Shown: in pieces, positions 8-60,438 of the stretch
How the letters are laid out: the number at the start of each line of letters is the position of its first letter
Numbering within the stretch: the first letter of the stretch is position 1
DNA from: Helicobacter cetorum
GTDB taxonomy: Bacteria > Campylobacterota > Campylobacteria > Campylobacterales > UBA6016
Assembly: GCA_022729705.1 (NCBI GenBank)
Contig: DZAX01000004.1
Location: forward strand, 1 to 64,000
Length of the DNA stretch: 64,000 nt
Direction of reading: 5' to 3'
Translations under genes and position numbers: made by a program
The notes under the pieces: generated by a model
What the model was told of the DNA's origin: nothing
Databases searched by the model: none
The model's input: only the letters and a program-made list of their open reading frames with translations

Positions 8-130
8 TTATGCTATTGCTTTGAATGGAATGGTACAACGTGGTGAAACTTGACATTTTTGCTCAATAATAATATCTTTGTTCTCTATGATTTCAGTTAA
101 GGATTCTATTGTTATTACTTCTTGTTTCAT
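8..130 (-). CDS. Short ORF, probably truncated by an IS remnant
   Basis: This is a 40-codon reading frame beginning MKQEVITIESLTEIIENKDI. A TATAAT box (138-143) lies 7 bases upstream of its ATG, so the message could be leaderless. Its last third runs through the IS-like segment at 24-55, which suggests that the original 3' end was replaced by insertion debris. I do not recognise the N-terminal part. It may be a real truncated gene or a chance frame. Confidence 0.25.
   Translation of the reverse strand: MKQEVITIESLTEIIENKDIIIEQKCQVSPRCTIPFKAIA
24..55. mobile_element. Terminal remnant of an insertion sequence
   Basis: These 32 bases match 33137-33168 with two mismatches. Both copies read through ATGGTACAACGTGGT into AAACTTGACA, and the copy at 33137 follows coding debris of an IS481-like transposase. 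The shared block is probably the last codons plus terminal repeat of one IS family. No intact transposase accompanies it here; the rest may lie beyond the window edge. Confidence 0.4.
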
Positions 131-1652: not shown

Positions 1653-1683
1653 TATGCTGTACCTTTTATATTTTATTAATTAC

Positions 1684-1760
1684 GCCTCGACGAACAAAGT
1701 CCGTCGAGGCTACGCTGAGCGCTGAGCTACTAAAGCTAGCCGTCGTGGACGGCAGAGTTT
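1684..1760. repeat. Composite hairpin repeat, minus orientation
   Basis: The first hairpin has perfect 9-base arms GCCTCGACG (1684-1692) and CGTCGAGGC (1702-1710) around the loop AACAAAGTC. It is followed by a TACGCTGAGCGCTGAGCTAC spacer, then CTAAAGCTAG and a second hairpin CCGTC-GTG-GACGG. The constant pieces (CAAAG loop, CTAAAGCTA flank) recur at 6930, 15298, 17541 and elsewhere with different stem sequences. It lies between the divergent rpe and rpmB. Confidence 0.7.
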
Positions 1761-6881: not shown

Positions 6882-6929
6882 AAATACTCTCCCGTTTAAA
6901 TTTTACTTAAGAACTGATGTTACGCATTC

Positions 6930-7010
6930 TAAATAAACAAAGCTTATTTAAAACGGCAAAGACGCGAGCATCCTTTGAGAATCCCCTGAAGCTACCCGCA
7001 TAAATGCGGG
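6930..7010. repeat. Composite hairpin repeat in the 6882-7197 gap
   Basis: The gap between the DUF465 gene and glmU holds a minus-orientation copy. A GATGTTACGCAT terminus leads to arms TAAATAA (6930-6936) and TTATTTA (6944-6950) around ACAAAGC. A degenerate middle module GGCAAAGACGCGAGCATCC follows, then CCCTGAAGCTA and a perfect CCCGCAT-AA-ATGCGGG is at 6995-7010. I saw no gene in the remaining 7011-7197. Confidence 0.7.
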
Positions 7011-7197
7011 AGAATATTTGAATTTAGCGCTTTTTTTGCAAAAGTGCGTAAGGTCAGTTAGGAATATTCTACAAAAAAGGCGCTTAAGCCCTACGACTAT
7101 AAGGGGCGGGATAAGTGGATTGCGCTCGCAAGACGCATAAGGCGAACATCTAGGAGGTTTTCAACAAAGGGTTGTTTGATTCTTCCTCTTTTTTCCG

Positions 7198-9329: not shown

Positions 9330-9355
9330 CCGTGGCGAGACTTTGTCCGTCACGG
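9330..9355. repeat. Single hairpin related to the composite repeat
   Basis: Arms CCGTGGCG and CGTCACGG pair (with one G-T) around AGACTTTGTC. The CTTTG loop and the preceding TTACGC match the hairpin at 1684-1710, although the stems differ. It lies between the convergent fliP and histidine kinase genes, so it may also act as a bidirectional terminator. Confidence 0.5.
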
Positions 9356-11356: not shown

Positions 11357-11586
11357 AAATATTTAACAAGACCATTAAAAATGCTACGACAAAAACATAT
11401 TACTATGAAACTATAGAAGAGCTTAAAAAACACTTGATGAGTTACTTGCTTTATTATAATCATCAGAAGAAACCAAAGGCTTTGAAGTTTAAGGCTCCTT
11501 ATGATACGTTACTTGGAAAGTTTGACACAAATCCTGAACTTTTTAAAGATAACCCTTGCCAGAAGTTGAGGAGACTGAACAATTAA
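11357..11586 (+). pseudogene. C-terminal fragment of an IS481-like transposase
   Basis: The frame keeps IFNKTIKNATTKTYYYETIE, then ELKKHLMSYLLYYNHQKKPK and KFKAPYDTLL. This is the segment after the last catalytic glutamate of DDE integrase-type transposases (IS481-like). Everything upstream of FNKT is missing and is replaced by the inverted repeat. It cannot be active. A matching N-terminal fragment of an IS481-like transposase lies at 54504-54608, far away on the same strand. Confidence 0.7.
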
Positions 11587-11607
11587 AATTACCAAAAATA
11601 GTTATCA

Positions 11608-13161: not shown

Positions 13162-13952
13162 TGATACATCAAACAGCAATAATAGAAGATGGAGCAACCA
13201 TCGGCGAGGGCGTGAAAATCGGGGCTTACGCGTATATCGGAGCCAAAGTCACAATCGGCGACGAGTGTGAAATAGGAAACTCTGCTCAAATAATAGGCAA
13301 GACTACGATAGGCAAAAAAAATCGTATCTTCTCCCATGCGGTCATCGGTTCAATCCCTCAAGACCTCAAATATGGCGGCGAGGAGACGGAACTTATAATG
13401 GGAGACGGCAATACAGTAAGAGAGTTTTGTCTATTTAACCCCGGAACTGTTCAAGACAAGGGCGTCACAAGACTTGGAAACAACTCGCTTTTTATGGCGT
13501 ATGTGCATATAGCCCACGATTGCGTGGTCGGAAACAACTGCATTTTGGCGAACAACGCCACGCTTGCGGGACATGTAGAGCTTGGAAATTACGCCGTTGT
13601 CGGCGGCATGACTCCTGTTCACCAGTTTGTAAAAGTCGGCGAGTTTGCCATGCTTGGCGGCGCTAGCGCTGTAAATCAAGACATACCTCCATACTGCCTA
13701 GCAGAGGGAAACAGGGCTCATCTTAGAGGACTGAATCTAGTAGGCTTAAGAAGACATATAGCGCATTCAGATTTGGACGCCGTCAAAAAAGCGTACAGAG
13801 AGCTTTTTTTAAAAGGCAGAATCCTAAAAGAAGCGGCTGAGGAGCTGTCAAAATCAGACAATAGCTACGTAGCGAATATCGCAAAATTTTGCCTTGAAAC
13901 AAAAAGAGGCATACCATACCACCAAAAAGATGCGGGCACAATAGATGAGTGA
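13161..13952 (+). CDS. lpxA: UDP-GlcNAc acyltransferase LpxA
   Basis: LpxA transfers a 3-hydroxyacyl chain to UDP-GlcNAc, the first step of lipid A synthesis. The 263-residue protein is a left-handed beta helix of hexapeptide repeats, with the catalytic histidine in YVHIAHDC and HQFVKVG, and a helical C-terminal domain. Its last two codons and stop (GATGAGTGA) form the beginning of a 26-base direct repeat that also begins clpX. The gene itself is intact. Confidence 0.97.
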   Translation: MIHQTAIIEDGATIGEGVKIGAYAYIGAKVTIGDECEIGNSAQIIGKTTIGKKNRIFSHAVIGSIPQDLKYGGEETELIMGDGNTVREFCLFNPGTVQDKGVTRLGNNSLFMAYVHIAHDCVVGNNCILANNATLAGHVELGNYAVVGGMTPVHQFVKVGEFAMLGGASAVNQDIPPYCLAEGNRAHLRGLNLVGLRRHIAHSDLDAVKKAYRELFLKGRILKEAAEELSKSDNSYVANIAKFCLETKRGIPYHQKDAGTIDE

Positions 13953-14070
13953 AAAAGTTTGTAATTTCTCAAAAAGCGGCAAGCCGCGCGGGCAGTCTGC
14001 GAAAGACCTAATTTACGGCTTTGCCGGAAATTTGAGGAGCGTCTGATGAGTGAAAAAGTTTGTAATTTCT
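13944..14070. repeat. 26-bp direct repeats flanking a 75-bp hairpin element
   Basis: GATGAGTGAAAAAGTTTGTA plus six more bases occurs identically at 13944-13969 and 14045-14070. The first copy supplies the lpxA stop, the second the clpX start. Between them lies a class II hairpin element: GCGGC-AA-GCCGC at 13976-13987, and AATTTACGGC with GCCGGAAATT at 14010-14032. The simplest reading is an insertion at an originally overlapping lpxA/clpX junction with duplication of the target. Confidence 0.8.
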
Positions 14071-15290
14071 GCGGAGCGCAAGATACCGAAGAAAATCCGC
14101 TTTTGGCGGGGGAAGATGCGTATATATGCAAAAACTGCGTATTAAGCGCTTATAAAATAATTTTAGGCGATTTAGCAATCTCAAAAAAAGAGGCTATAAA
14201 AGGCGAAGTGGTTCCAAAAAAGCTTAAAGAGGCTTTGGATGGCTATGTAATAGGTCAAGATAGAGCAAAAAAAATAATCGCCGTAGCGGTTTACAACCAT
14301 TTTAAGCGTGTTTTAAAAGATTTGCCCTCAGAAGACGATGAGACGGAACTTAAAAAATCAAACATCTTGCTCGTTGGGCCAACCGGAAGCGGTAAAACCC
14401 TAATAGCTCAGACGCTTGCAAAATATCTGGACGTGCCTATAGCGATTACGGATGCGACAAGCCTCACAGAGGCGGGATATGTCGGCGAAGACGTGGAAAA
14501 CATCTTGGTTAGACTTCTGCAATCAGCCGACGGCGACGTAAAAAAAGCGGAGCACGGCATAGTCTTTATAGACGAAGTTGACAAAATAGCTAGAATGAGC
14601 GAAAACCGCTCGATAACAAGAGACGTATCCGGCGAGGGCGTACAGCAAGCTCTTCTCAAAATCATAGAGGGAAGCAGCGTAAACATCCCTCCAAAAGGCG
14701 GAAGAAAACACCCAAATCAAGAGTTTATCCAGATGGATACGACAAATATACTCTTTATTGCGGGCGGCGCATTTGACGGGCTTGGCGAAATCATCAAAAA
14801 CAGAATATCCGGCTCGGCTATGGGATTTTTGCAAAAAGAGGTAAAAGAGCTAAAAGATGAAAATATCTTTGACTCGATAGAGCCAGACGACTTAGTCAAA
14901 TTTGGACTTATCCCCGAGCTTATAGGCAGACTCCATGTAATAGCGAGCCTAAAAGAGCTAAATCTTGAAGAGCTTGTTCAAGTGTTTACAGAGCCAAAAA
15001 ATTCGCTACTAAAGCAATACAAAAAGCTATTTGCGATAGACAACGTAACGCTAACCTTTACAGACGACGCAATAGAGGCTATCTGCAAAGAGAGTATCAA
15101 ACGAAAAACCGGCGCAAGGGGGCTTAGGGCGATAATAGAAGATATTATGACCGATACGATGTATGATTTACCGGAACTTAGCGGATATGAGATTATTGTA
15201 AACAAAGAGTGCATAGAAAAAAGTGAAAAACCGTTAAAAATCAAGCTATCAAAATCCGAAACCACAAAAAGCAAAAAAGCTAGCGCATAA
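14046..15290 (+). CDS. clpX: ClpX, ATPase of the Clp protease
   Basis: ClpX unfolds tagged substrates and feeds them to ClpP. The 414-residue protein starts with the zinc-binding domain (Cys6, Cys9, Cys28, Cys31), followed by Walker A GPTGSGKT, Walker [12 protein letters not shown] and sensor segments ([13 protein letters not shown]-like region, [12 protein letters not shown]). The start ATG lies inside the duplicated 26-base segment, so its upstream region is recent in origin. GAGGAG at about 14034 provides a ribosome-binding site inside the inserted element. Confidence 0.97.
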
Positions 15291-15297
15291 AGAGAAC

Positions 15298-15513
15298 GTC
15301 GCAAGAAGCAAAGCTCCTTACGACTACGCTGCGCTATGCTACCAAAGCTAACCCCTGACGGGGTAGAGGGCTGTCTTTTTTTACTATAGCTAACCCTTGG
15401 TGGGATAAAGGGCTGTCATTTTTTTACTCTGCCGCATCTATGCGGCTAGCTTTAGGGGGTCGGTAGGGACACTTGTGTCCCTACCGCCAAAGACGGGCTT
15501 AGCTCGTCTTTGG
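15298..15513. repeat. Pair of opposed composite hairpin repeats
   Basis: A minus-orientation copy comes first: a GTCGCAAG/CTTACGAC hairpin with CAAAG loop (15298-15324), then ACCAAAGCTAA and CCCC-TGA-CGGGG. A 42-base unit containing this last hairpin is repeated in tandem (15344-15385 and 15386-15428). A plus-orientation copy follows: GCCGCAT-CT-ATGCGGC (15431), CGGTAGGGACAC with GTGTCCCTACCG (15461-15486), and CCAAAGACGGGC with GCTCGTCTTTGG (15487-15513). Confidence 0.8.
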
Positions 15514-15542
15514 CGTTAATATATGCACAAAGGATATAAACA

Positions 15543-16577: not shown

Positions 16578-17382
16578 AAAATGGGTTCTCTCGTTCGCCC
16601 TCTTAGCACTTTTGAGTGTAGTTTACTATTTTTTGGGTTCCCTGTTGCAAAAACAGATTCAGCCGCTATCATCAAACGTTAGGCTTCTTTATCTAAATAT
16701 TACAGAGTATTTTGGCGACACGATAGATAAACACTACTCGCAAGCCGAAATGATTGCGTCTTTAAAAACCCAAAACGAAAAGCTCCAAAAAGACGCTCTT
16801 ACATACAAAAATGCCATCAAAGAGGCGGGATACAGCCAAAATGTATCCAACTTTTCGGTTTTGGACGCAAATAAAAGCGTAAAAATCAAGCTCTCAAGGG
16901 CTCTTTCATACTCAAACTTACCAAATCTTTATAGGCTTTGGATAGATTTTGAGCCGTCAAAAGAAAGCGACAACAACGTAATTACGCCAAAGATATACGG
17001 TGTCATCTATCCGACAAAAAATAAATTGGACTCTGTAGCGTGCGGTATAGCCGTTAAAGGTCAAAATAGCGCTTATGAGGTTTTTTTGAACGGGGACTCA
17101 AGATGTTCTTACGGAGTATACATAGGCAAATCAAAAGCTCTCGGAATAGTGTATGGTAAAAATCAAGATAAACTCATAGTGAAGTATATACCGACCTGGA
17201 TGGAGGTAAACCCCGGAGATGAAGTGCTGACAAGCGGATTGGATAATATTTTTTTTGAGGGCGTTTTGGTTGGCGTCGTAAAAAGCGTAAGCTCAAATAG
17301 CGCATACAAAGAGGCGTTGGTGCAGGGGTACTACAACCCCCTCTCTCCAAATTATTTTTATGTCATTGAAAGAGCCAAATGA
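16570..17382 (+). CDS. mreC: Rod-shape determining protein MreC
   Basis: MreC is an inner-membrane periplasmic scaffold that links MreB to the elongation penicillin-binding protein. The 270-residue protein has one N-terminal membrane helix (LSFALLALLSVVYYFLGSLL), a coiled coil (SLKTQNEKLQKDALTYKNAI) and C-terminal beta domains with PGDEVLTSGLDNIFFEGVLV. The start overlaps mreB, indicating co-translation. mreD does not follow, as is common in this phylum. Confidence 0.93.
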   Translation: MSKKWVLSFALLALLSVVYYFLGSLLQKQIQPLSSNVRLLYLNITEYFGDTIDKHYSQAEMIASLKTQNEKLQKDALTYKNAIKEAGYSQNVSNFSVLDANKSVKIKLSRALSYSNLPNLYRLWIDFEPSKESDNNVITPKIYGVIYPTKNKLDSVACGIAVKGQNSAYEVFLNGDSRCSYGVYIGKSKALGIVYGKNQDKLIVKYIPTWMEVNPGDEVLTSGLDNIFFEGVLVGVVKSVSSNSAYKEALVQGYYNPLSPNYFYVIERAK

Positions 17383-17387
17383 TTATC

Positions 17388-17610
17388 TGATGTTATGCAC
17401 TTTTATAAAAAAGGGCGTATGAATACCTCTAAAATTCTCAAAAACAAAGTTTTTGTAGCTTTAGGGGGGGGGGTTGCAAGGGACATTTGTCCCTGCCGCT
17501 AAAACGAATGTATTTGTTTTAGCGCGTAGCATAATGACACGCACAAAGGAGCAAAGCCCCTTTGTGCTACGCTAGCCGCTGAGGCGCTAAAACTAGTCGC
17601 ATAAAGCGCC
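17388..17610. repeat. Opposed pair of composite hairpin repeats between mreC and carB
   Basis: A plus-orientation copy starts with CTGATGTTATGCAC and has CAAAAAC-AAA-GTTTTTG (17439-17455) followed by TAGCTTTAGGGGG. Next come GGGAC-ATTT-GTCCC with outer GCA/TGC pairs (17476-17496), GCTAAAAC with GTTTTAGC (17498-17523), and GCGTAGCATAAT. A minus-orientation copy begins at once: GCACAAAGG with CCTTTGTGC around AGCAAAGCC (17541-17567), TACGCT, then CTAAAACTAG and GCATAAAGC. The flanks match other copies, but the stems do not. Confidence 0.8.
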
Positions 17611-17645
17611 AGATTTTGAAAGGTGAAATAAAAAAGAGGTAAAAG

Positions 17646-21419: not shown

Positions 21420-21481
21420 GCGGCGAGCCGTGAGAGCTTTCACAGCACGAAGACCACATTTTGGGATTCGCCCAAAATGTG
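21420..21481. repeat. Class II hairpin repeat between convergent genes
   Basis: GCGGC-GA-GCCGT (21420-21431) is followed by a CAGCACGAAGACC linker and perfect arms CACATTTTGGG and CCCAAAATGTG around ATTCG (21455-21481), ending GAGCATTAAT. It corresponds to 1783-1843 and 13976-14032. It lies between the ends of the Sua5-like gene and pflB, where it may also serve as a terminator. Confidence 0.65.
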
Positions 21482-21499
21482 AGCATTAATCGGATACTC

Positions 21500-23806
21500 T
21501 TATTTGATGTCAAAATCAAAAAAATCAGACTCAAAAGTGCCTTTTATAGATTTAAATTGTTTTGAAGATTGAGGTAGATTTGCCGCCTCAAGGTACAAAA
21601 CTCCAAGCGCATAGAGGCTCTCGGCACTTGCTGGGTCATATAGCTTAGCAAGTTCAAAATATGATATAGCGTCTGAGTGTTTGCCGGAGGCTATAGCGGA
21701 AGCCCCTGCCATAAAAAGAGTTTGCGCATTTACAAAGTTTGTATCCATGACAACGGCCGAATAAGCTTCTCTAGCCTCTTTAAACATCTTAAGATACATT
21801 AGCGTTGCGCCGTATCCGTTTAGCAGTTGTGCTCTATCGCTTTTTTCTGTTTGGAGTCTTGCTTCATACAACTCTTTTGCTTTTGAAAGTAGCCCCGATA
21901 CTCTATGAAGCGACAAAAACATATCTTTTACTATCTCAGGACCATAAAATACAGGCTCTATGTTGTAGGCTTTTTTATTTAGATACATCTGCGTCTCTCT
22001 TGCAAAAGACTTTATATCGCTACCTGAATTTTTGACGAAAATATCAAGACCCGACGCCACTATATCGTTTGTAGACGCTTCAGTAAGAGCTTTTGAGTAT
22101 GTGACGGCTTGACTTTTTTTGCCGACTTTTAAGGATGCGAGTGCGCCTATTGTTAACAGCATATTGTTTTTATTTGGCGTTGAGCCTATCCATGTAATTG
22201 CGGATGGGTAGTTGTCTAGCGCAAAAGCAAGCATCGCCGAATATGCTGTTTTGTTGTCAAAATTAACTTGACCAAAAATATCGTTTGTGAGAGAGTCTTT
22301 GATTCTATCGTATGGGACTCCCATGATTTTTGAAGTAAGAACAGAGAAGATTCCAGCTTCATAATTTTTTGGATCAAAGTTGTACGCTTTTATAAAGTAT
22401 TTATTTGCTTCTTTAAAATCGCCGCTTTGAGCGTATGATAGTCCCAAATTATACATCAAAACGGCGTGAGCTGGATATTTTGACTCTAGCGACTTAAATA
22501 GATTATTGGCTTGGTACACTCTGCCCGATAACGCATAGTCTATGCCGCGAACCATCTCTGCGTTAACTTTTGATTGTTTAGCGGCGTTTTCAAGATAACC
22601 GATTCCGGCTTTAATATCGTCTACCATAATTCCGGCTTGACCTTTTTTGATAGAGGAGATTGTTTTGTTTGGATTAAACACTTTGTATGGTGCGTAATAA
22701 AATATTAAAGACGCTTCGTTTTTTTGATTTAACAAAAATTGATTTAAAAGCTTATCTTGCAACGAACTTGCTTCAAAGGCGTTGTGTCTCAAAAAAATCT
22801 CAATATTAAACATATTTGAAGCGTTTTGCTCTGATATAGCTGTGGCTTCATTGATAGCGTCGGCCGCTTTTTGCGGATTTTTGGCTTTTATATAGACAAG
22901 CGCTTCGCCCATTGCCGCTTTTAGTTTTTGCTCGTCATTTTTTTTCGCATTTTCTAAGGCGTTAATCGCTTCATCATATCTGCCGACTCTAGCTTCCAAA
23001 AAGCCTATATTAAGGTAGTCTTTGTTTTTTTCGTTTTTTAGTATTTTGAGCATCTCATACGGGTCGTCAAAGAGCAAATAAGCTCTTTTTGCAAGCTCAG
23101 CGCTCTCTTCTTCGAAAAACTTTGAGGTTGGCGAGTGAATAGAGGACAAAGCCTCAAAATAGTCTCCGTCGTAGTAGCTAATCATCGTGTAATAAAAAGA
23201 GTAGAGCGGAGAACTTGCATATCTAGGAAGCGAGGCTTTTGCCAAAGCGATATACTCTCTAGCGGCTTTTTTATCTCCAAGTTTTAACATGCAAACAGCC
23301 GCATTTATTGCGCTTGGCAGTTCGTTATCGGCGGATTCTATAGAGCTTTTGAAGTATTCCAAAGCGCCTTTTGGATCCCCCTCGTGCATTTTTGCCACAC
23401 CCAAATTGTAATTTGAAACCCCTTCTGAATAAATAGAAATCTCTTCAAATATTTTTAGGGCACCCGATTTGTCGCCATTTTCATACAAAGCTTTTGCTTT
23501 TTTGATTAGTTGTTCCATCTCGCCGACGCTAATTTTTTGCTTTACGCCAAGTTTTGATCTATTTGAATCAGATACGTTTACTTCTACTTTTTCGCTTTTT
23601 GGCCATTTCATTATTGCAAGCGCTATTGCGCCAACCAAAAGAGCGGCTCCGATAATTGAACCGCCTCTTTGAAGAATTTTTTTAATTCGTTCTTTTTTTT
23701 TGTTTACAATCTCTTTTTTTTCAGTTTCCGGCTTTGTTGGTTCGCCAAATGACATTGACGAGAAGCCATCGTTCTCTTCGACTATTACTATCTCTTCAGC
23801 TGCCAT
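21500..23806 (-). CDS. pflB: PflB-like TPR membrane protein of the flagellar motor
   Basis: In Campylobacter jejuni the gene after serS encodes PflB, a scaffold around the polar flagellar motor that works with PflA to position stator units. This 768-residue protein is in the same position (trpS-serS-this gene). It has a cytoplasmic N-terminus, one membrane helix at about 49-67 (GSIIGAALLVGAIALAIMKW), and then many tetratricopeptide-like helical pairs, for example KALYENGDKSGALKIFEEIS, AVLMYNLGLSYAQSGDFKEA and AESLYALGVLYLEAANLPQS. The identification rests on architecture and synteny. Confidence 0.85.
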   Translation of the reverse strand: MAAEEIVIVEENDGFSSMSFGEPTKPETEKKEIVNKKKERIKKILQRGGSIIGAALLVGAIALAIMKWPKSEKVEVNVSDSNRSKLGVKQKISVGEMEQLIKKAKALYENGDKSGALKIFEEISIYSEGVSNYNLGVAKMHEGDPKGALEYFKSSIESADNELPSAINAAVCMLKLGDKKAAREYIALAKASLPRYASSPLYSFYYTMISYYDGDYFEALSSIHSPTSKFFEEESAELAKRAYLLFDDPYEMLKILKNEKNKDYLNIGFLEARVGRYDEAINALENAKKNDEQKLKAAMGEALVYIKAKNPQKAADAINEATAISEQNASNMFNIEIFLRHNAFEASSLQDKLLNQFLLNQKNEASLIFYYAPYKVFNPNKTISSIKKGQAGIMVDDIKAGIGYLENAAKQSKVNAEMVRGIDYALSGRVYQANNLFKSLESKYPAHAVLMYNLGLSYAQSGDFKEANKYFIKAYNFDPKNYEAGIFSVLTSKIMGVPYDRIKDSLTNDIFGQVNFDNKTAYSAMLAFALDNYPSAITWIGSTPNKNNMLLTIGALASLKVGKKSQAVTYSKALTEASTNDIVASGLDIFVKNSGSDIKSFARETQMYLNKKAYNIEPVFYGPEIVKDMFLSLHRVSGLLSKAKELYEARLQTEKSDRAQLLNGYGATLMYLKMFKEAREAYSAVVMDTNFVNAQTLFMAGASAIASGKHSDAISYFELAKLYDPASAESLYALGVLYLEAANLPQSSKQFKSIKGTFESDFFDFDIK

Positions 23807-29430: not shown

Positions 29431-30738
29431 ATGAAAAAACATTTTAAAAACTATTTTTTGATAAGTGCGGTGCTTAGCGCCTCACTTTTGGCGCAAGAGG
29501 ATACTCTCACTTTGAGCGAAGCGTATTCGCTCGCATTAAAAAATGAATCCAAAACTCGTGGAGCCGCTTTTAAAGCGGAGGCTTCCGCCGAGGGAGTTTA
29601 TCAGGCCAGGTCAAGACTTCTTCCTCAGATACAGTACGCTTACTCAAAAGGTAAGACGGAGTATGAATCGCAATATTATAGAACCACCACAAAAGAGATG
29701 TATACGTATAATCAAATATCATTAGTTCAGCCGCTATTTCATGCCGACTACTGGTTTGGAGCATCGCAGGCGTATATGAGAAGAGACGGCGGCGCAATTG
29801 AGTATAAGCGCCAATCTGAGCTTCTTGGAATCGACCTTGCAAAAACATATTTTAACTACCTTAAGACAAAAAGAGAAGAGGCTCTTGCCGGTTGGCAAAT
29901 GGAGCAGTATGAATCAAAATATAAGCAGTTAGACAAGATGCTTTCCATGGGGCTATCAAATAAGATTGATATGCTGGAAGCTAAAATCAGATTTGATAAA
30001 ACAAAAGCGGAGTGGCTTAGTTGGCAAAAGCAACTTGGCGTCGCTAAATACGCTCTTGAAAAGATGATTGGCGAGCCTATTGATAAAAAAAGACTACTGG
30101 AGCCGGAGAGAATTAATTTAACAACCCTTGCGGCGGATAGGGCGGAATGGGAGCAAAAACTAACTCAAAATAACGATGTTCGTTTGGCAAAAACATATCT
30201 CAAAATAGCGGAAAAAGAGATTGATATAAGAGCCGCCGATCACTATCCTAGAGTAGATATGAGAGTTTCTTATACAAAGACGGATACGCAAGATATTTCC
30301 GCGCACAAATACGATAAGAGTTTTTTTATAGATATTAAGATACCAATCTATCAAGGCGGCTATGTAAGCTCAAGAGTAGCCGAGGCGAAGCTACTTGCTC
30401 GTGCGGCAAAAGAGGATTTGGATGCGGCTACAAAAGAGAGTAAGCTAAAGTTTGAGGATCTTTGGTCAAGAAGAGATCTTAGCATTCAAAGCGTTGATCT
30501 ATTCAAAGAGCACGAAAAAGCCGCCGAACTTTATGTGGTTTCTATGGAAAAAGCCCATAAGGCCGGATTAAAAAGCGTTGTAGATGTTTTGGAGGCGAAA
30601 GCCAAGCTTTACGGTGCAAAAAGAGATCTTATAAACGCCACATACGACCTTATCAATAACCAGTTAGAGTTGCTAAACGCCACAGGCGAACTAAACAGCA
30701 CAAAAATAAAAGAGCTTGAAGATAGAATTAGCATATGA
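29431..30738 (+). CDS. TolC family outer membrane channel
   Basis: TolC-like trimers form the outer-membrane exit duct. The 435-residue protein has a signal peptide (NYFLISAVLSASLLAQE), followed by the long helices typical of the family, with LTLSEAYSLALKNESKTRGA and a second repeat beginning near NNDVRLAKTYLKIAEKEIDI. Thirty bases separate it from the adaptor gene, so the three form a complete exporter. I find no RTX or other secreted substrate gene in the window. Confidence 0.92.
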   Translation: MKKHFKNYFLISAVLSASLLAQEDTLTLSEAYSLALKNESKTRGAAFKAEASAEGVYQARSRLLPQIQYAYSKGKTEYESQYYRTTTKEMYTYNQISLVQPLFHADYWFGASQAYMRRDGGAIEYKRQSELLGIDLAKTYFNYLKTKREEALAGWQMEQYESKYKQLDKMLSMGLSNKIDMLEAKIRFDKTKAEWLSWQKQLGVAKYALEKMIGEPIDKKRLLEPERINLTTLAADRAEWEQKLTQNNDVRLAKTYLKIAEKEIDIRAADHYPRVDMRVSYTKTDTQDISAHKYDKSFFIDIKIPIYQGGYVSSRVAEAKLLARAAKEDLDAATKESKLKFEDLWSRRDLSIQSVDLFKEHEKAAELYVVSMEKAHKAGLKSVVDVLEAKAKLYGAKRDLINATYDLINNQLELLNATGELNSTKIKELEDRISI

Positions 30739-30854
30739 TGTTATGCGCTTTATATGCGTAACATCTTATACTCTCCCGCATTTATGCGGGTAGCTTCAGG
30801 GGGTGCAGGGACATTTATGTCCTTGCCGCCAATACGGGCTTTGCCCGTATTGGC
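30737..30854. repeat. Most complete composite hairpin repeat
   Basis: This copy shows all modules. GATGTTATGCGC folds back on TATGCGTAACATC (30737-30765). CCCGCAT-TT-ATGCGGG (30775-30790) is followed by TAGCTTCAGGGGG. GCAGGGACAT pairs with ATGTCCTTGC (30805-30826). GCCAATACGGGC pairs with GCCCGTATTGGC around TTT (30828-30854), and GCGTAACATTAAT ends the unit. It lies between the convergent TolC and sugar transferase genes. Confidence 0.8.
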
Positions 30855-30862
30855 GCGTAACA

Positions 30863-32224
30863 TTAATAAGCCCCGCTTTTTTTAATCACGACTTTGATTG
30901 TTTTTAGCAGTATGACAATATCAAGCCAAATAGACCAGTTAAGCGTATACCATACATCCATACTGAGACGCTCTTCAAAAGTGAGTTCGTTGCGTCCTGA
31001 GACCTGCCAAAGCCCTGTAATCCCAGGTTTTGCCTCCAGAATATACTCTCTTTTATCCCCCATATCCTCTGATTCGATAAGCAAGTATGGGCGTGGGCCT
31101 ACTATGCTCATCTCTCCTTTTAGTACGTTAAATATCTGCGGAAGTTCATCGATAGACATAGCCCGTAAAAATCTACCAACCTTTGTGATTCTAGGGTCGT
31201 TTCCTTTTATTTTTTTATATATGCACCATTCAAGATTTGCCTCGCTATTTTCGGCTAAATGGTTTGCTAAAATTTCATCCGCATTTTGATACATACTTCG
31301 AAATTTGTAGACCCAAAACTCTTTACCACCCTCGCCAAGGCGCTTTTGTTTAAATATCGCTAGACCCTTAGAGTCAAGCCTAATTAAAATAGAGATAGCG
31401 GCTATAAGCGGCAGAATAAACGGTATCGCCAAAATGGATAACGTAACGTCAAGCGTTCTTTTTATAAAAATATTTGTCTCAGATTTAAGGTTATTTTTGA
31501 TGGTAAGAAAAAAAGTGCGTTCGTCAAAAGAGTAGTTAAACTCTGTATTAAGGACGGCTACGCCTTGAATGTCGGGAGAGAGTATTATATTTTTAGCTAC
31601 TTTTTGCAGTGTTATCAGCTCTTTTTCAGTTACGGCTCCGCACACTACGACCGTATCTATTTTCTGATTTACAAACTCTTTATGCCCGTCAATATTTTGT
31701 GCAAAACCAACAATTTTATAACCAAGATAACTATCGGCTTCAAATTTTTCAGCAAGTTCTGTAGCTTTTTTATTTTCCCCTATAATAATCGCTTTTTCGC
31801 CCCAAATGTGAGCCTTATAAAGCCTTTTTTTCAATAAAAGTTTTACCACCGGAACAAATAAGGCTATAAGAAAAATACCAAATAGCAGAGCCGCACGGGA
31901 CATCGAGTGTTCAAGTTTGAAAATAGCCGTCGCAAAAAAGAATATAACAATTGCCGCAAAAGCGGTTCTAGTTACCTCTTTTGTCTCATCCCAAAAACCT
32001 ATCCTTTTTCTATACAACCCTCTTAGATAAAATAAAAAGACAAAAAAAGCGGCAAATACCGTAAAAAACCATGTTTTTTCACTAAGAATATATATACTTG
32101 TTGTTACGCTAAAACCATTTTCGACCAAATATCTTATAAAAAAAGAGCTAGTAATAGAGAAAAAGATTACGGTATAATCAAAAGCCGCAAGAAGTAAAAA
32201 AACAAAAAATTTACGTCCAAACAT
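30863..32224 (-). CDS. WbaP-like polyprenyl-phosphate sugar-1-phosphate transferase
   Basis: Such enzymes start O-antigen, capsule or exopolysaccharide units by moving a sugar phosphate to undecaprenyl phosphate. The 453-residue protein has about five membrane helices in the N-terminal 270 residues and then the bacterial sugar transferase domain: KRTLDVTLSILAIPF, VYKFRSMYQNADEIL, DPRITKVGRFLRAMSIDELP, GEMSIVGPRPYL and GITGLWQVSGRNELTFEERL. All catalytic segments are present. No glycosyltransferase cluster is adjacent, and the sugar is unknown. Confidence 0.92.
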   Translation of the reverse strand: MFGRKFFVFLLLAAFDYTVIFFSITSSFFIRYLVENGFSVTTSIYILSEKTWFFTVFAAFFVFLFYLRGLYRKRIGFWDETKEVTRTAFAAIVIFFFATAIFKLEHSMSRAALLFGIFLIALFVPVVKLLLKKRLYKAHIWGEKAIIIGENKKATELAEKFEADSYLGYKIVGFAQNIDGHKEFVNQKIDTVVVCGAVTEKELITLQKVAKNIILSPDIQGVAVLNTEFNYSFDERTFFLTIKNNLKSETNIFIKRTLDVTLSILAIPFILPLIAAISILIRLDSKGLAIFKQKRLGEGGKEFWVYKFRSMYQNADEILANHLAENSEANLEWCIYKKIKGNDPRITKVGRFLRAMSIDELPQIFNVLKGEMSIVGPRPYLLIESEDMGDKREYILEAKPGITGLWQVSGRNELTFEERLSMDVWYTLNWSIWLDIVILLKTIKVVIKKSGAY

Positions 32225-32879: not shown

Positions 32880-33192
32880 GACGTAAGAGAAAAACTGCAT
32901 ACATTACAGAGTTTTCAAAAGCATGTGGACATACTCCCATCATCGATGTTCATCCTGGAAACCGTGAAGAGACAAAAATAGCGATTGAGGGACAAAGAAT
33001 ACTTGAAAAGACGGGGTTTGATATACTACAGCACAAATAGAAAACACGGTGGACTGAAAAAAGAACTTAAGGCCAGAACGCCGTGTGAAGCGGTTAAAAG
33101 TTGGTTCGATATAGAACCGCAAAATTTTAAGATTTCAATGGGATGGTACAACGTGGTAAAACTTGACAGTTGGCGACTTAGAGTGTGGTAAA
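32880..33192 (+). pseudogene. Mosaic of decayed transposase fragments
   Basis: Two pieces are visible. At 32900-33040 a frame reads YITEFSKACGHTPIIDVHPG followed by ILEKTGFDI, resembling the middle of DDE transposases of the IS4/IS1182 or ISNCY kind. A second frame at about 33060-33190 has LKARTPCEAVKSWFDIEPQN, like the C-terminus of IS481-type transposases. It ends in two successive IS-end-like blocks (GTGGTAAAACTTGACA and GTGGTAAAACTGGACA). Several stops and frameshifts make it inactive. Confidence 0.6.
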
Positions 33193-42496: not shown

Positions 42497-42508
42497 TTCA
42501 CGTTATGT

Positions 42509-42535
42509 GCCAATACGAACAAAACTCGTATTGGC
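42509..42535. repeat. Single hairpin module
   Basis: Arms GCCAATACGA and TCGTATTGGC pair perfectly around ACAAAAC. CGTTATGT stands before it and GCATAGACG after, echoing the ATGTTATGC/GCGTAACAT ends of the composite repeat. The outer stem matches the last module at 30828, while the inner stem differs. It sits between the convergent porin and aroK genes and could terminate both. Confidence 0.6.
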
Positions 42536-42590
42536 AGCATAGACGCCATATTCCGCAATCAGTCTTTCATATAGACGAAAGTAAGCTTTT

Positions 42591-47970: not shown

Positions 47971-48300
47971 CTTAAACAAAGGATCTGCGATGAGAAATTA
48001 TCGGTTAGAGGTAGGTTGATTATTATTGCCGCCGCTAAAAGCATTAGATGCGAGTTAGGATAAAATACGCCAATAGAACCCTCTGATTAATTCTCACATT
48101 TTGGGCAAAGCCCAAATGGATATGAGTTATTTTACGAAGCCGATAATTTGAGTCGTCAAATAGAAAGCCTATCCGCCAATTCAAATGAGCAAGACGGCAT
48201 GAATGTGACAAATAAGACGGTTTTGACAACGAAGGAGATTTTGTCCGCAACAAACGCAATGGAGGGTTTAATCATGCGTCGCTTATCTTCTCATCTTTAG
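47971..48300. other. Repeat fragment and gene remnant after murB
   Basis: The hairpin CATTTTGGGC-AAA-GCCCAAATG at 48097-48118 is a reversed class II element. Directly after it an open frame without a credible start runs from about 48120 to a stop at 48298-48300: YELFYEADNLSRQIESLSAN, then MNVTNKTVLTTKEILSATNA. I do not recognise it; it reads like the 3' end of a lost gene, with its stop inside the rdgB end. Confidence 0.4.
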
Positions 48301-53635: not shown

Positions 53636-53935
53636 ATGTTTACAAATGCGCAACTTCTTTGGCGTTCACGCTCACCACTATGCCGGTCTCTCAACTGGCA
53701 TAGGGGCTCTAATTGTTCCTATGGTCAAGAGCCAATCAAAATCTATTCTCTCTATTGGTCTTGGTTTTTCAGCAGGAGTCATGCGCTATGTCTCTTTTAT
53801 GGAGATACTACCCTTTTCGATATTTGAATTAAGCAAAAGTTTACGCCAAAAGAAGCCAAAACGACGGCGGTAATCGCATTTATCGATAGGATGGTTCCAA
53901 GCGAGATAAATCCGCATGAGTTTTCAGGCGGCAAA
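53636..53935 (+). pseudogene. Broken ZIP-family zinc transporter
   Basis: Pieces of a ZupT-like transporter are visible in shifting frames: LAFTLTTM, then AGLSTGIGALIVPMV with SILSIGLGFSAGVMRYVSFM, and in another frame KEAKTTAVIAFIDRMVPSEI with NPHEFSGG. At least two frameshifts and a small deletion (the FFGGM-like stretch between AVIAF and IDR) inactivate it. Coding similarity stops exactly where a composite hairpin repeat begins at 53931, and the C-terminal two thirds of the gene are missing. Confidence 0.75.
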
Positions 53936-53980
53936 GACATAAATGTCCCTGCACCCCCTAAAGCTTCCCGCATTTGCGGG
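53931..53980. repeat. Composite hairpin repeat at the end of the ZIP pseudogene
   Basis: Minus-orientation copy: GCAAAGACATAAATGTCCCT (53931-53950) carries the GACAT/ATGTC stem, followed by GCACCCCCTAAAGCTT and CCCGCA-TT-TGCGGG (53967-53980). It matches 30775-30826 read on the other strand. It marks the break point of the pseudogene, which suggests insertion or deletion at the repeat. Confidence 0.75.
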
Positions 53981-53995
53981 AGAGCGCATGGCGAG

Positions 53996-59689: not shown

Positions 59690-59720
59690 ACCCGCCGCGC
59701 TCCCTGCAAAACTTTTACGC

Positions 59721-59793
59721 AAATTGTACCCGCCAAACGCAAAAAAAAAGCCCACAATTCCGACGTCCACACGCCCATAAGCTTTTGACTCTC
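59721..59793. repeat. 73-bp direct repeat, copy 1 (before the Dam-type gene)
   Basis: Identical to 60366-60438 except for four bases. It is a copy of the 3' end of the acetyltransferase gene plus a promoter-like GGGTACAATTT (minus strand), which here would drive the Dam-type methylase. The reading frame of the acetyltransferase tail (QKLMGVWT) is still visible. Confidence 0.85.
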
Positions 59794-60340: not shown

Positions 60341-60365
60341 TATGCAGCCCCTTGTTTTTGTTTTC

Positions 60366-60438
60366 AAATTGTACCCGCCAAACGCAAAAACAAAGCCTAC
60401 AATTCCGCCGTCCACACGCCCATAAGCTTTTGGCTCTC
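60366..60438. repeat. 73-bp direct repeat, copy 2 (end of the acetyltransferase gene)
   Basis: Sixty-nine of 73 bases match 59721-59793. This copy contains the last codons and stop of the acetyltransferase gene and a GGGTACAATTT promoter-like box on the minus strand in front of the antitoxin gene. It is probably the original copy, because the acetyltransferase frame is intact through it. Confidence 0.85.

Follow-up and report, generated by a model that had tools for sequence, protein, structure and literature searches.

Organisation of a hairpin element between two convergent genes

The 64,000-nucleotide stretch analysed here (the window) includes a series of hairpins at positions 30737–30865, and the question raised by this locus is what these hairpins are and how their stems can differ from copy to copy while remaining complementary. 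The genes on either side converge and are named from their translations: a TolC-family gene, whose last base is 30738, and a sugar-transferase-like gene with its stop at 30863–30865. The gap between the two stop codons is exactly filled by the element. In the related species G001, just the two gene ends are present at this site and the element is absent. Coding capacity at 30739–30865 is confined to chance open reading frames (ORFs) of at most 43 aa.

The copy at 30737–30865 consists, in order, of a left inverted repeat hairpin, CTCT, hairpin H1, the linker TAGCTTCAGGGGGT, hairpin M2, hairpin H3 and CGTAACATTA (Table 1). The TGA of its left arm is also the stop of the upstream TolC-family gene (ORF 29431–30738). 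The general layout of the element, here named type A, is invariant: CTCT, H1, TAGCTTYAGGGGG, M2, H3, then GTAACATCA. A second architecture, type B, retains H1, TAGCTTYAG and H3, but its middle hairpin is short (NGC..GCN) and H3 is preceded by AGCGTAG. The fixed UAGCUUYAGGGGG segment is likely to be a recognition part for a protein or RNA.

Table 1. Element copies in the window and parts of the copy between the convergent genes (CM, covariance model)
Feature	Coordinates	Strand	Evidence and remarks
Left arm, hairpin-forming, including the left terminal inverted repeat (TGATGTTATGCG...TGCGTAACAT)	30739–30765	+	Sequence
Type-A core, best model match	30770–30865	+	CM R1, 119.6 bits; empty site in G001:C124
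Hairpin H1, CCCGCA-TTTA-TGCGGG	30775–30790	+	
Fixed linker TAGCTTCAGGGGGT	30791–30804	+	
Hairpin M2, GCAGGGACA-TTTA-TGTCCTTGC	30805–30826	+	
Hairpin H3, CGCCAATACGGGC-TTT-GCCCGTATTGGCG	30827–30855	+	
Right terminal repeat CGTAACATTA	30856–30865	+	Contains TAA stop of convergent gene 30863–32224 (-)
Type-B copy	1675–1758	-	CM R2, 90 bits
Full-length type-A copy, both terminal inverted repeats	6915–7055 (CM match 6915–7015)	-	CM R1; target duplication matched at 6 of 7 positions (TTCCTAA/TTCTTAA)
Type-B copy	15289–15369	-	CM R2, 83 bits
Type-A copy	15426–15524	+	CM R1, 90 bits; absent in G001:C113 and G002:C80
Type-A copy, left arm CTGATGTTATGCAC upstream	17434–17534	+	CM R1, 60 bits; G001:C113 site empty
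Type-B copy	17532–17615	-	CM R2, 81 bits
Fragment, H3 and right end	42498–42584	-	CM R1, 31 bits
Type-A copy, H3 side truncated	53904–53985	-	CM R1, 55 bits

Copy number and distribution

Scattered sites in the window had been listed in a preliminary description as carrying the same ordered hairpins, and all of them were found to be present. The covariance models match them, that at 9330 being an isolated weak H3 module (E 0.24). When the search was extended to the whole 2.19-Mb genome, at least 150 type-A matches were found with model R1, down to an E value of 4e-26, together with about 37 type-B copies, and the element is therefore not limited to the few copies first listed. Matches were carried by 28 of 120 relatives and by 57 of the 397 genomes in a sample of the phylum, these 57 all falling within a single order. 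A scan of named genomes with a 21-mer from the linker identified at least 120 stretches, and among the matches listed all were from Campylobacterota, mostly Sulfurimonas, but also Sulfuricurvum, Sulfurovum and Sulfurospirillum. The carriers outside the source genome are many related sulfur-cycle bacteria. One copy was found on a plasmid, and none in viral contigs. The window had no match in Rfam at the gathering threshold, and loci L185, L120 and L110 had none at E values up to 0.1.

Covariation of the stems

The stems vary between copies yet remain complementary, with two-sided changes at 21 of 28 pairs (334 cells; 0 of 500 shuffles). Variants of H1 include CCCGC, CGAAAAG, CATAAAAC and CCATATC, and the stems originally quoted (CCCGCAT, GCCGCAT and CAAAAAC), like GCCGTC at 1740, all have their complement on the 3' side, with TAGCTTYAG or a near variant after it. 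When 80 copies were aligned, 96.2% of cells were paired; the covariation score was 0.454 for this alignment, which was fitted to the model, versus 0.157 when shuffled and 0.06–0.09 for slid partners. With one copy taken from each of 110 genomes, Watson-Crick pairing was 0.964 for H1, 0.977 for M2 and 0.876 for H3, and fell to 0.559, 0.616 and 0.472, respectively, when the 3' arms were re-dealt between copies. As the hairpin parser itself selects good hairpins, it was also run on shuffled flanks; all three hairpin thresholds were passed by 58% of linker matches versus 3% with shuffled flanks. Chance is excluded by the number of genome matches, the result with shuffled flanks and the loss of pairing on re-dealing. 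The initial proposal of a maintained structure with free stem sequence is borne out by the re-dealt arms and the two-sided changes, and it is the folded shape of the element that is preserved, probably as RNA.

G.U pairs outnumber A.C pairs on the strand that reads CTCT-H1-TAGCTT. The ratio was 84:40, versus about 1.2:1 expected with arms re-dealt, with two G.U-rich H3 positions left out and with counts that are not independent events, as the copies share ancestry. In alignment A3, pairs 65–118 and 133–165 are mostly U.G and G.U across genomes (59/79 and 54/79). In the linkers, G-to-A changes are commoner than C-to-T, hence there is no mutational bias matching the G.U excess. Folding of one strand, as RNA or single-stranded DNA, is favoured over a symmetric cruciform, and this evidence is moderate because the copies are related. 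Of the RNA or cruciform function first envisaged, a symmetric cruciform is disfavoured by the G.U excess, which is moderate beyond composition, and by the two positions that are usually G.U. The energy of the whole-element fold was rejected as evidence on the strand, since base composition fully explains the difference: an advantage of 5 kcal/mol for the + strand vanished against dinucleotide shuffles.

Complementary arms could also arise without selection if template switching (quasi-palindrome correction) rewrote the stems, and a copying process of this kind had been offered as an explanation. Between very similar copies there are indeed pairs changed on both sides, A-T to T-A flips among them. 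However, one-sided intermediates are common, and such a process does not predict an excess of G.U on one strand. In H3 of very similar copies in the source genome, 14 differences were two-sided and about 21 one-sided, of which 11 were G.U, 2 A.C and the remainder of other kinds, while a stricter count gave more two-sided changes but left out poorly paired stems. As one-sided intermediates are common, arm copying is not required for the two-sided changes; these can be reached step by step through wobble intermediates, and template switching is very improbable.

Evidence for mobility

The preliminary description had overlooked that the element is mobile, as indicated by terminal inverted repeats (TIRs), target duplications and empty sites. 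Full-length copies in other genomes have TIRs (CTGAYNTTACGCAC and its complement) and 7-bp AT-rich target duplications. For 40 full-length copies with both inverted repeats, the 7-bp match was 0.700 versus 0.506 when shuffled (sd 0.021); the duplication was perfect in 10 of the 40, other lengths were near background, and the result was repeated in a wider set of 65 copies from outside the source genome (z 8.1). Sites 15291–15528, 17381–17630 and 30722–30864 were found to be empty in related genomes.

The left TIR is present on 38% of copies from other genomes (3% for control sequence) and on 12% of those in the source genome (2% for control sequence). The boundaries of the source-genome copies are sharp at ACTCT and at GTAACATCA, and a target duplication was looked for in these copies and none was seen. 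Those that have neither left repeat nor duplication fall outside a simple model of TIRs and target duplications; either left arms that were old have been lost, or the short form moves differently. Where an antisense gene adjoins, the right end lies at most 10 nt from its stop in 60–69% of cases, and this stop is most often the element's own TGA or the adjacent TAA. No consistent sense bias was found in the orientation of the element relative to genes.

The high dispersed copy number, TIRs, 7-bp duplications, empty sites, gene-end position and covarying three-hairpin interior argue for a mobile element of the Campylobacterales that is non-autonomous and of MITE type, inserts at gene ends and maintains its interior fold, likeliest as one-strand RNA. 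This reading is considered reasonably probable. The inverted repeats would be recognised by a transposase acting in trans, and insertion beside or just within a stop codon may be tolerated where the end of the element provides a stop (CTGA..., TTA...). Transcripts of neighbouring genes would then include the element as their tail, and the + strand of the element is predicted to fold as RNA into H1, M2 and H3, with purifying selection presumably acting on the fold and leaving base identity free, giving rise to the covariation.

The gene-end placement and the covariation of the stems are also consistent with a host-useful structured RNA (a 3'-UTR stabiliser, RNase site or regulator) that was spread by an old mobile element and whose copies are now selected in place. 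In the source genome the core is better conserved than the left arm, and the sole orthologous type-B pair differs just by changes that preserve + strand pairs. However, copies are polymorphic among species within one genus, most genomes of the phylum sample lack the element and its orientation to genes is inconsistent, making this origin quite unlikely. It is extremely unlikely that the repeats are a family of intrinsic transcription terminators: hairpins do sit at convergent gene ends, and a copy in G002 occupies the place of a terminator-like hairpin in G001, but a T-tract is absent and a scan of 30650–30950 found no terminator.

Search for a transposase

The search, across the genomes and loci covered, yielded no autonomous element with these TIRs. 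The ends of IS4-type transposases (PF01609) do not match, and no autonomous element was found between distant TIRs, those in G080 enclosing a different interior. In that genome (L324–L326), identical TIRs surround a GTCATTGCGAGGCACGAAGCAATC-type palindromic repeat, forming a shell with a swapped interior.

In the absence of TIRs and target duplications, the short copies in the source genome resemble REP/BIME-like repeats that a RAYT or an IS200-type Y1 transposase mobilises as single-stranded DNA; such an enzyme would read hairpin shape together with a short fixed tag and thereby keep the fold. The hairpins have fixed unpaired flanks, GTAG lies 5' of H3 in type B, G.T pairs would likewise be favoured in one DNA strand, and Y1 transposase genes are present in the source genome. 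However, these Y1 genes, including those of RAYT type, are sited among other repeat families, and none of the 20 Y1 matches in the 15 genomes checked had an element copy, linker or TIR beside it; the single linker match in L033 is chance-like and distant from the Y1 gene. A Y1 match is absent in carriers G092, G079, G113, G093, G001 and G002. The GTAG tag at H1 is on the 3' side, the opposite polarity, the element has three hairpins over about 95 nt in place of a single short one, and full-length copies have 7-bp target duplications. Movement by a Y1 enzyme is thus judged unlikely.

It is distinctly doubtful, but conceivable, that the element is selfish and depends on an RNA fold for its mobility, with the three-hairpin core, once transcribed, being recognised as substrate by a guide-, reverse-transcriptase- or RNP-based mover. 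If true, this would account for the spread of short copies that have no left inverted repeat or target duplications. Integron attC sites, which are characterised by RYYYAAC/GTTRRRY, were also considered and rejected, as they do not fit and the copies are dispersed.

Two RAYT-like genes in the source genome (L032 and L033, in C17 and C72) lie amid their own repeats, GTGTCAGGCACTCTTTT and GGAAGTGGGRCTTTAGYCCCGC. A further locus (L031, in C48) is an IS605-like element that carries a TnpB-like gene together with a Y1 transposase gene broken by a stop codon.

Relationship to known repeats

The bacterial MITEs Correia/NEMIS, ERIC and RUP have TIRs and target duplications, no coding content and predicted folded transcripts (PMC2229807). 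The element described here is like them in being non-coding and about 100–200 bp, with TIRs, target duplications, many intergenic copies and predicted folding of the transcript. It differs in having three separate hairpins, which are joined by fixed linkers and covary in their stems, whereas the MITEs have one long end-to-end stem, and further in its 7-bp duplication and in that a parent IS was not found in the searched genomes.

GTAG- and CGTC-tagged REPs, published in 2013, combine a fixed tag with stems in which alternative residues are complementary; their frequent G-T pairs were read as hinting at a function in RNA (PMC3733652). The covarying stems beside a fixed tag are therefore not unusual for REP-like repeats, contrary to what had been supposed, and the element shares these features. 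However, the tagged REPs are single hairpins of 20–40 bp, while the element is a 95–190 bp composite with TIRs, has the opposite GTAG polarity at H1 and has no linked RAYT. Both kinds of tagged REP occur in Sulfurovum sp. NBC37-1 (PMC3733652), and the comparison with these families was made on their described features. Pneumococcal BOX, RUP and SPRITE are likewise repeats built of hairpin modules, which are co-transcribed and show enrichment where genes converge (PMC3049150), but belong to a different phylum and differ in sequence; BOX varies in module number, the element in stem sequence.

The present analysis adds a composite element of order-wide distribution, in which inverted repeats and 7-bp duplications accompany three hairpins that covary independently around fixed linkers, and no description of it was found in a literature search of incomplete coverage. 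With hundreds of copies per clade in which the fold is preserved while the sequence drifts, these natural variants allow testing of why bacterial interspersed repeats keep hairpins, be it reading by a transposase, RNA stability or an artefact of copying. The family model can also be used to annotate intergenic regions in Sulfurimonas-type genomes.

Other repeats in the window

Type C (GCGACTAGTCGC...GCTGAAGACCTCATTTTGGGCTTTGCCCAAAATGTGAGAATTAAT), a third kind of hairpin repeat, was seen in the window at 1774–1853, 13966–14035, 21437–21500 and 48066–48120, with dozens of copies in the source genome and relatives. The copy just before clpX (window 13940–14072) is flanked by a 25–26 nt direct duplication of the first clpX codons (ATGAGTGAAAAAGTTTGTAATTTCT), which is common to G001 and missing in another G001 paralogue. 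A long target duplication was rejected as its explanation, as this is a single event only.

A repeat of about 120 bp at 33018–33138 is 81–98% identical to several other sites in the genome, and part of it resembles window positions 20–58. The segment of about 230 bp at 11360–11589 has several genome copies with 77–89% identity, perhaps reflecting a shared protein domain. A direct repeat of 74 bp, 95% identical, is located at 59720–59793 and 60365–60438 with a spacing of 645 bp.
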